Positions 4,667 to 64,000 of a stretch of 64,000 nt of DNA are shown piece by piece. The stretch is from Muricea muricata (taxonomy: Eukaryota; Cnidaria; Anthozoa; Malacalcyonacea; Plexauridae): the NCBI GenBank assembly GCA_963855995.1, contig OY979717.1, positions 12,713,001-12,777,000 on the forward strand, in the 5' to 3' direction. Each line of letters begins with the position of its first letter. The stretch's first letter is position 1. The notes beneath the pieces are model-generated. The model searched no databases and had not been told where the DNA came from. It saw only the letters and a list, made by a program, of their open reading frames with translations. The position numbers and the translations under genes are program-made.

Positions 4667-7600
4667 CATCTGTTCTTTTGGTAGTTGCTTCAGTGGTAGT
4701 GCTGGTACTAGGGGTACTAATGGTGGTTTTCACTTGTTGAAACTCTAGAAATACGAGTGTAATTGATTAAAATGTGCATGATACTTGCATATTAACCTGT
4801 ATGCATCAGCCTACTTACTATCGAATCTGACAATGTTGTGTAATCCGATAAAGAACAATAACATTTATTACTATTTGTTCTGGTCTATTAAAGTAACCAC
4901 AATAAGTGTTATTTCCAATATGAAAATATCAAGAGTTGTTCATACCATCTTTTCTTTTGGTAGTTGCTTCAGTGGTAGTGCTGGTAGTAGTGGTAAAAAT
5001 GGTGGTATTCACTTGCAGTTCAAACTCTACAAAGACGAGTGCAATTGATTAAAGGTGCGCTGTACGAAACGCACTGTATAATGACTAAAGAAGTAAGGTG
5101 CAACCCTTCTTGTACGTTACTTAAAAACAATGAAAAAATTCAGTACACACCTTTAGCTTTGACAGTAGTTTTAATCATTTTTGGTTTTTCACAAATCCAA
5201 GCCAACTTAATGTCGCATCTTAGATTATTCCAGCGTTTTCTCCTCTTTAGAATGTGAGTGCAGTGCTCTTTGTTTAGCTTATTTGGTTCACCTCTGTTCC
5301 ACTGCGTTATATTAAGCATATCCCCATTACTCCATGTCCAAGATGTATTGTTTTTAACTTGTGTTTCATATGTCAACCCAATCCAAAAATTGTTAGCCTT
5401 GTTTCTTGTATGACTATAAACAAAGTCCACTTCTTCTTGTGTTGTCAAAGAAACCAAATCTGCCCCTCTTCCTAGGCAATATGCGCGAGCTCTTCCCCAA
5501 TTCGACTTCACTCGTTCATAGTTTGGAGCTTCTGGTGTGACAAATAAATAACAGGAACTACCAAAGCTTTTCCATCTGCTAGCACATGCTTCAATGAGAA
5601 GCGCTTTGAATGAAAAAATAATATTACTTCTATAGTTACTGTCAAATCATAAAGGCAATTCATAAGCTATAACCTATTTATTTCTAATAATATCTATGTA
5701 CTGGGTGCATAAGTAAAATGGTAATCGTATTTGGGCGTGCTCTAGGGCACTCAATATTTACTGTAAAATTAGAAGAAAAATTTAGCAAATATGAATCAGA
5801 TAAAAATTACCCGTCGAAATCGCATTTTTTTTACCATTGGTAATTTGTTGAAAATTTGTTGAAATTTAACCATTTGCAATTAAAATTGTAAATTCCCCTA
5901 GCTTAGCTAGTAAAAATTAATGCATCTTATTAGCGAAGTTGATTGTTTCTCGTGACAAATCAGTGATTAATAGATTCTCTTTTCTTATTGGCTGCCTTAA
6001 TAATACCTGATGTGAAAATACACGATTTCGGTTGAGAGCTAAAACTGGTCTTTCCGATGTAGTGAATTGTTGAATCAGAATTACAAATGAGTTTATCTTT
6101 TGAATAAAACTAAAAATACATGTAGTTACTAAGTTAATTCCGACACCGACTGAGAAAGAATGATTTCTGTAAATTAAATTATGAACGCGTCAGAGCACGA
6201 TGCGAAGTTTGATTACCTTTTTTTAACACATCCTGCATAAACAATAAACAATTTAGTTCTAAGACAAACGGCTTTGGACATATAACTAAGACTATATGCA
6301 CAGGAGGTGGTTTCCGAGCGTTTTCACAGCAGTCTAAATGAAAACGATATGAACTATAAAAATTCTGATCGCATGAATGTCAGAGTATTTTGAAAAAGTA
6401 TTTCACAACTATATGTTCGCATATCACAAATATCATGGCTGTGCTGCTGCTCTACTTTCTCTTACTGAACAGTGGAAAGAAGAACTAGACAAACATAAGA
6501 TGGTTGCTGTTGCGGCATTAGACTTAAGTAAAGCATTTGATTGTTTGCCGCATGATCTGATTTTGGAGAAACTTAAATTTTACGGTATGGACGAAAAATC
6601 ACTTTCATTACTCAACTCTTATCTGACAATTAATGCGTTTTCAAAGAGTAAAGTTAGAAAGAACCTTTTCAACATGGAGTGAAGTGATAAGGGGTGTGCC
6701 ACAGGGGTCTATTTTAGGTCCCCTGTTGTTTGATATTTTTATGAATGATCTGGTTTATGCAATTAAGGAGAGCAAGTTAAACTATGCTGATTATACTAAA
6801 TTACATTATTCGCATAAAGATCCGGATATAGTTGAAGCAGAAATTAATAAAGATTTAGATCGTGCAAGCATGTGGTTTGTAAACAACGGAATGAAGGTGA
6901 ATCCGACCAAGCACCAAGCAATGATACTCGGCAATTGCAAATCGAAAATTCAAATAACGTTAGATAGGACAGGTGTCCCAGTTACCAATCACATGGTTCT
7001 GTTGGGTATGACGATTGACAATAAACTCAACTATTTGACATGCATGTCGCTGGAGTTTGTCGTAAAGTTGGCAGACAAATAAATGTCCTTAACAGGCTAA
7101 AGAATATTCTACCATTGAAGACAAAAGAAGCTCTTTATCACTCGCTTGTTCTTCCCTACTTAAACTATTGTAGCCAGGTGTGGCATCATGGTGGTACGAG
7201 ACATGCACGAAAATTGGAGAAAGTTAATAAGAGAGCACTACGTTATGTCTATAAAGACAAACATAAATCTTATAATGAATTGCTTGAAATAGCAGGCCAT
7301 ACAGGTTACATTAAAAAACCGTAGAATTCAAGATATCCTGATTATAGTTAATAACTGTTTAATGAACAGGGCACCCGAAAGCATAAAAAAAATCATTTCC
7401 CTTCGTAAATCAAAATATGATTTGAGAGGTGATAATGTTTTATCAATCCTTAAGGTAAGTACAACCAAAAAAGGCTTAAAGTCCTGGAGGTATTTTTCCC
7501 CTAGGCAATGGAACAATTTAGATAATAGTATTAGATCTCAAGCTGGAACTACTGATTTTGTTAGAACTATTCGTAACGAAACATTTGAACATAGTATCTA

Positions 7601-63903: not shown

Positions 63904-64000
63904 TTTATTACTCTTTACATTTATCTGCATAGGATCTCTAAGTTTCTAGATTGTTTCATTATCTGAGATCTGGAAAATCATTACCATATCATGATGGAGG
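63904..64000 (-). other. Lectin receptor gene F, 3' flank entering the window
   Basis: AATAAA (minus) at 63904-63909, then TCTCTAAGTTTCTAGATTG and CATATCATGATGGAGG, the conserved sequence just 3' of the tail exons at 35262, 39888 and 51133. The coding part lies beyond the right edge, so the array continues. Confidence 0.75.

Follow-up and report, generated by a model that had tools for sequence, protein, structure and literature searches.

The stretch of DNA analysed here, referred to as the window, covers 64,000 nt of Muricea muricata (GCA_963855995.1, OY979717.1, 12,713,001-12,777,000, forward strand). It carries a cluster of genes and gene remnants, units A to F, all of which lie on the minus strand and are arranged head to tail. 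Exon models of three of these units (B, D and E) have four exons each, with GT-AG introns that are all in phase 1 and open frames of 333, 309 and 309 aa, respectively. The encoded parts follow each other in the same order in all three: a C-type lectin domain (CTLD), a Thr-rich stalk, a single transmembrane (TM) helix, and a tail with paired YxxL motifs. The features are as follows, with (-) for the minus strand.

38519-38567 (-): gene B exon 1, with the start codon and, by eye, a signal-peptide-like hydrophobic N-terminus
36117-36569 (-): gene B exon 2, encoding the CTLD, with EPS and WNN motifs
35774-35854 (-): gene B exon 3, Thr-rich stalk
35262-35680 (-): gene B exon 4, encoding the TM helix and the long form of the cytoplasmic tail, with the end SYVIPPS
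35403-35453 (-): gene B ITAM, YTELDHNREPENTYISL, residues 271-287 (DNA coordinates derived from the exon model)
53585-53633 (-): gene D exon 1
52021-52482 (-): gene D exon 2, CTLD with EPN and with Lys for Glu two residues before Cys
51715-51795 (-): gene D exon 3, stalk
51133-51470 (-): gene D exon 4, TM helix and a tail shorter than in B; its ITAM lies at 51193-51243 (derived from the model)
62521-62569 (-): gene E exon 1
58592-59053 (-): gene E exon 2, CTLD with EPN and WNN
58263-58343 (-): gene E exon 3, stalk
57698-58035 (-): gene E exon 4, TM helix and a tail shorter than in B; its ITAM lies at 57758-57808 (derived from the model)
10295-10343 (-): unit A, putative exon 1, diverged
5151-5603 (-): unit A, CTLD exon
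4946-5026 (-): unit A, first stalk exon
4667-4744 (-): unit A, second (duplicated) stalk exon
47352-47400 (-): unit C, exon 1 (coordinates derived from alignment)
39838-40179 (-): unit C, tail remnant, frameshifted, with YTEP for YTEL
63931-64000 (-): unit F, another tail exon, of which the window edge leaves only the 3' end

An earlier note on this DNA had described at least six copies on one four-exon plan. This number proved too high: a six-frame profile scan of the window (segments of at least 20 aa) found only four CTLD exons, each with an E-value of 1e-69 or better and the next best match at 0.37, together with three TM/tail exons that are complete and a single fragment of a tail. The remainder of the proposed gene structure held. 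The three full reading frames with their phase 1 introns could be rebuilt, the exon coordinates given for gene B needed no change, and lectin head, stalk, helix and paired YxxL tail do lie in one chain in the models of B, D and E.

The other units are incomplete. For unit A, the six-frame profile search found no tail exon in the window, and this exon may lie beyond the left window edge. The duplication of its stalk exon suggests stalk-length variation. Both copies of that exon (4667-5026, minus strand) are bordered by AG and GT. In unit C, exon 1 and a tail fragment are all that was found in the window, with no CTLD or TM exon. Unit F takes up the final 70 nt of the window, which match the 3' end of unit B.

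Several mobile elements and repeats are interspersed in the cluster. Between units A and B, Pao/BEL-type retroelement ORFs with Peptidase_A17, RVT_1 and DUF1759 occupy 26263-29748 (-), and two short arrays of tandem repeats (29667-29731 and 31141-31205), which are mutual reverse complements, flank about 1.4 kb adjoining these ORFs. Reverse-transcriptase ORFs are present at 6633-7079 (+), 13258-14970 (-) and 48317-49843 (-); of these, just the first and the last have RVT_1 above its cut-off, and the second and third look Penelope-like by eye. A DUF6729 ORF (43048-43830, +; 1.3e-36) lies between the surviving ends of unit C, where the CTLD and TM exons are missing. Two tandem arrays with a 13-bp unit (60322-60527 and 61860-62031) lie in the first intron of gene E and are mutually inverted.

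Related proteins in the databases

An alignment search listed 49 proteins, 48 of which were examined. Thirteen carry the same tail, and one of these (P0040) is remnant C of the window itself. Among the matches listed, the nearest named relatives are from the octocorals Dendronephthya and Paramuricea, and the more distant ones include Oculina, Mya and vertebrate lectins. Three uncharacterized proteins (P0001, P0002 and P0003) have CTLD, stalk, TM and ITAM tail as in the window genes, at 46-53% identity. P0001 has 475 aa and two CTLDs; P0002 is Dendronephthya gigantea LOC114544771, partial, on a contig of 17,497 nt; and P0003, with 274 aa, begins within the lectin domain and comes from a contig of 1,774 nt. 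In each of the three, lectin, stalk, TM and tail are joined in one predicted protein, so that the union of CTLD and ITAM that the earlier note proposed to look for in related genomes does recur there. The contig of P0003 is probably a transcript, because it contains as one run what is split over three exons in the window; it is the only one of the three that looks so. Paramuricea clavata P0004 comprises the lectin part alone.

Some of the database ORFs share the size of their longest contig: 472,609 for P0010 and P0027; 1,104,596 for P0028 and P0031; and 1,180,514 for P0009, P0016 and P0026. These matching sizes, the sole basis of the comparison, suggest that lectin and tail ORFs are clustered in relatives too. 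A tail-only database search for other heads on the same tail, as domain shuffling would produce, returned just P0001 and thus gave no sign of such shuffling. Precomputed Pfam labels beyond Lectin_C are PF05473.19 on P0001 and PF27867.1 on the tail ORF P0026.

Lectin head and transmembrane helix

In gene B, Lectin_C is the only Pfam family above its cut-off (residues 49-156, E-value 1.9e-19, 70.8 bits against a cut-off of 22.6). TMEM154 was set aside for the stalk, TM and tail of B, as its score of 23.6 is under the cut-off of 30.3. A structure predicted for the lectin exon of B reached moderate confidence (mean pLDDT 69.9, pTM 0.63) and contributes little.

Ca2+-dependent CTLDs of the mannose type have EPN, a Glu before Cys, and WND as calcium-site residues. 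These motifs were scanned in the four window models and in 31 of the 48 fetched proteins, and the resulting 36 rows represent 34 distinct CTLDs, two window exons appearing twice. EPN occurs in 29 of the 34, Glu two residues before Cys (C-2) in 29, WNN in 26, and WND in three (P0033, P0037 and P0039). Gene B has EPS for EPN. In gene D, Lys at C-2 replaces the expected calcium-ligand Glu, and its sugar site may have been altered or may no longer work. Judged by these residues, A and E could plausibly bind sugar, and for D this is doubtful.

Since the lectin domain precedes the TM helix and the helix precedes the tail, B, D and E are read as type I membrane proteins. The predicted tail has 102 residues in B and 75 in D and E. 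The family comparisons use 15 tails, namely the three from the window (B, D and E) and 12 from the database. In all 15, the TM stretch is free of D, E, K, R and H, and a basic residue comes next to it. An uncharged TM helix gives no sign of adaptor pairing. By analogy with known vertebrate receptors, it would fit a self-contained receptor, not one that depends on a charge-paired adaptor.

The paired-tyrosine tail

An ITAM in its broad form is YxxL/I-x6-12-YxxL/I, and the narrow form has a spacing of x6-8. The tails of B, D and E contain YTEL-x9-YISL (in D and E, YTELHHNREPENTYISL at residues 274-290) and match Y..[LI]x6-12Y..[LI]. Both tyrosines and both leucines at +3 are invariant in 15/15 tails, although this retention is partly ascertained, as the database tails came from tail-containing queries, with which motif-less tails are harder to find, and nine of the 12 are tail-only ORFs. 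With that reservation, the tail tyrosines are conserved in the homologues compared; a lack of such conservation in expressed homologues is what the earlier note would have counted against the receptor. The spacing is 9 in every tail, within the broad form and outside the narrow one. The motif has been lost in P0040, the broken copy from unit C, which has YTEP and a frameshift. An acidic residue is present at -3 of the second tyrosine in 15/15 tails, and within the four residues before the first tyrosine in 14/15. At the paired tyrosines, neither ITIM nor ITSM forms, that is, (I/V/L/S)xYxx(L/V/I) or TxYxx(V/I), occur in any of the 15; at a further tyrosine, the ITIM form is found in one tail (P0003).

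How much can be read from this motif was assessed in two ways. Residue shuffles (n=20,000) of tail B or D gave the broad motif in 0.6-0.7% and the exact YxxL-x9-YxxL in 0.015-0.03%; shuffles of eight tails gave the canonical motif in 0.2-3% and the exact one in 0-0.12%. At these rates a single tail is no more than suggestive, and the conservation is the stronger evidence. The 15 tails have pairwise identities of 29-96% (median 47%), and only 7 of the 86 columns scored are invariant. All four motif columns are among those seven, which has a probability of 1.6e-5 if columns are exchangeable.

C-type lectins often act in uptake, and YTEL and YISL each fit the YxxPhi pattern. The two motifs could therefore be AP-2 sorting signals of an endocytic lectin that is taken up constitutively, with no phosphotyrosine switch. 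AP-2 signals, however, do not require a partner YxxL at a set distance, whereas all 15 tails keep both tyrosines and the spacing of x9. We regard a purely endocytic role as unlikely; uptake and signalling can in any case coexist in one receptor.

Further tyrosines are found outside the ITAM. YENP or YDNP is present in 10/15 tails, and a C-terminal YVIP in 9/15, with YAIP in P0032 and YEIP in P0041. From known SH2 preferences, the main output of such a tail could be Grb2/Crk-type docking at YENP and YxxP without Syk, possibly in adhesion or development and not in immunity. These docking sites vary, and the C-terminal YxxP site is missing in D, E and P0026, but the paired YxxL is constant in all 15 tails, which makes a scaffold-like main function rather improbable.

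The missing C-terminal site separates two forms of the tail. In D and E, a common one-base gap relative to B ends the tail right after YVIA, where B continues to SYVIPPS. A tree built from the 15 tails groups D with E and P0026 at a support of 99/98; B and P0018 fall outside this group, in a five-row group with a support of 96/94, and are mutually nearest by path, although their pairing is not resolved in the tree. Since P0026, too, has a tail with a short end, the shortened form may have been retained as a class.

Substitution patterns were compared among B, D and E. In the three pairs, omega is 0.38-0.40 for the tail exon, against 0.94, 1.24 and 2.87 for the lectin exon (0.95-1.19 in pairs with A). 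Over these pairs, which are not independent, the bootstrap P for constraint on the tail is 0.019, 0.014 and 0.134, and the Fisher P for the contrast between tail and lectin exons is 0.028, 0.151 and 0.043. An excess of pN over pS in the lectin exon has a bootstrap P of 0.040 (uncorrected) in D-E, and of 0.254 and 0.471 in the other pairs. The lectin pS (0.021-0.077) is under every intron divergence of the same pair (0.135-0.175 for B against D or E; 0.035-0.189 for D-E), and this low pS inflates the lectin omega. Strong positive selection on the lectin exon is therefore unproven, its bootstrap support coming from D-E alone. What can safely be stated is that the tail appears constrained and the head loosely constrained, with a contrast that is statistically modest.

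These results also bear on whether the cluster is a graveyard of decaying duplicates stirred by retroelements, in which B alone matters. Unit A without a tail exon in the window, the broken unit C, the common shortening of the D and E tails, and the reverse-transcriptase and Pao-type ORFs between units would all agree with decay. Against this, splice sites and frame are kept in B, D and E, omega is about 0.4 for their tail exon, and D and E are joined in the tree by P0026, whose tail is similarly short at its end. We consider general decay very improbable.

A candidate receptor and its known counterparts

Taken together, the cluster probably belongs to an octocoral-type family of activating lectin immune receptors, each a single type I chain that bears its own ITAM. 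The earlier note had proposed a self-contained lectin receptor of this kind, and at the level of sequence this is supported by the joined chain, the motif in 15/15 tails and the uncharged TM helix. In such a receptor, the C-type lectin head on its short Thr-rich stalk would bind a surface ligand, and the resulting clustering would allow a Src-type kinase to phosphorylate the two tail tyrosines of YTEL-x9-YISL. A kinase of the Syk or Shark type would then dock on the two phosphotyrosines through its tandem SH2 domains, with phagocytosis, an output of the CARD-Bcl10-paracaspase type, or both as the result. YENP/YDNP, and YVIP in the longer tails, may serve as extra SH2 docking sites. Architecture, exon plan, the conserved motif, the uncharged TM helix and the joined predicted proteins of relatives are read directly in the sequences; topology, phosphorylation, kinase recruitment and output are inferred.

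Parts of this route have been reported in cnidarians and other invertebrates. In the passages drawn on here, Staal et al. 2018 (PMC5978004) report Bcl10 in cnidarians and tie Syk/Zap70 homologues to organisms with CARD-CC/Bcl10, inferring anciently conserved upstream ITAM receptors from the shared distribution; those passages name no cnidarian receptor and do not name Syk outright in a cnidarian. They also describe that Nematostella paracaspases gave no NF-kB induction in human cells, so the output of the coral receptors may differ. According to the sections used of three further papers, cnidarians have no clean CARD9 match but a near match only (PMC8260672), invertebrates have one Syk-like gene plus Shark (PMC10253181), and associated signalling molecules are encoded in the Hydractinia genome (PMC12065747). 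It is tentatively proposed that the lectins could be an upstream receptor family for the cnidarian Syk/CARD-CC/Bcl10/paracaspase pathway, with a variable head on an unchanging ITAM tail, through which octocorals might sense microbes, algal symbionts or foreign tissue. As the lectin exon evolves almost neutrally, the recognition of microbes, symbionts or non-self that the earlier note suggested is no more than a possibility.

If this is true, lectin-to-ITAM signalling would have existed at or before the cnidarian-bilaterian split, or its type I version would have had a separate origin. How corals sense microbes and symbionts could be tested on such a lectin, a concrete receptor that carries a conserved ITAM itself, and the same receptor bears on whether lectin-ITAM-Syk signalling predates vertebrates.

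Dectin-1, CLEC-2 and DNGR-1 are type II proteins, with the CTLD C-terminal to the TM helix and a single N-terminal hemITAM YxxL. The coral genes resemble them in that a lectin-type head and (as predicted) Syk-type tyrosine signalling are combined in one chain, but they fall outside this group: they read as type I, with the CTLD N-terminal to the TM helix and two YxxL motifs C-terminal to it. Mincle and Dectin-2 signal via the ITAM of a separate adaptor, FcR-gamma; here, too, a lectin works with a full ITAM, but in the corals the ITAM is in the lectin's own chain and the TM helix is uncharged. Fc-gamma-RIIA, which has a long spacing, and CEACAM3 are vertebrate single-chain type I receptors with their own ITAM and Ig-domain heads, so that the coral chains share their plan and differ in having a lectin head. 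The mannose receptor group, with many CTLDs and further domains in a type I chain, does not include the coral proteins, as there is one CTLD in B, D and E and two in P0001.

Within cnidarians, the Alr proteins of Hydractinia have ectodomains of the Ig-superfamily type. Hydractinia Alr allorecognition receptors and candidates have been described, in the part of PMC12065747 used here, with ITAM- and ITIM-type tail motifs. They are alike in phylum and tail motif, but the head of gene B has Lectin_C only above the Pfam cut-off, which places the coral genes outside the Alr group. LePin, a Xenia lectin, is reported in the passage used to mark alga-hosting cells (PMC7332420); its domain make-up is different, so it provides no evidence for the coral ITAM lectins. 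The tails of lectin receptors in general can bear ITAM or ITIM, as stated in the section used of one review (PMC9505182). A C-type lectin survey of 15 cnidarians, including Dendronephthya and Xenia, does not mention ITAM or Syk in its main text, and the part used describes functional studies as so far limited to MBL homologues (PMC8260672). Searches of the open-access literature yielded no lectin and ITAM receptor in cnidarians, octocorals, corals or oysters. Given the Hydractinia allorecognition candidates, the presence of an ITAM on a cnidarian receptor has, by itself, a precedent. What is unusual here is a C-type lectin with a complete ITAM in its own type I chain, in a clustered family with an unchanging tail.
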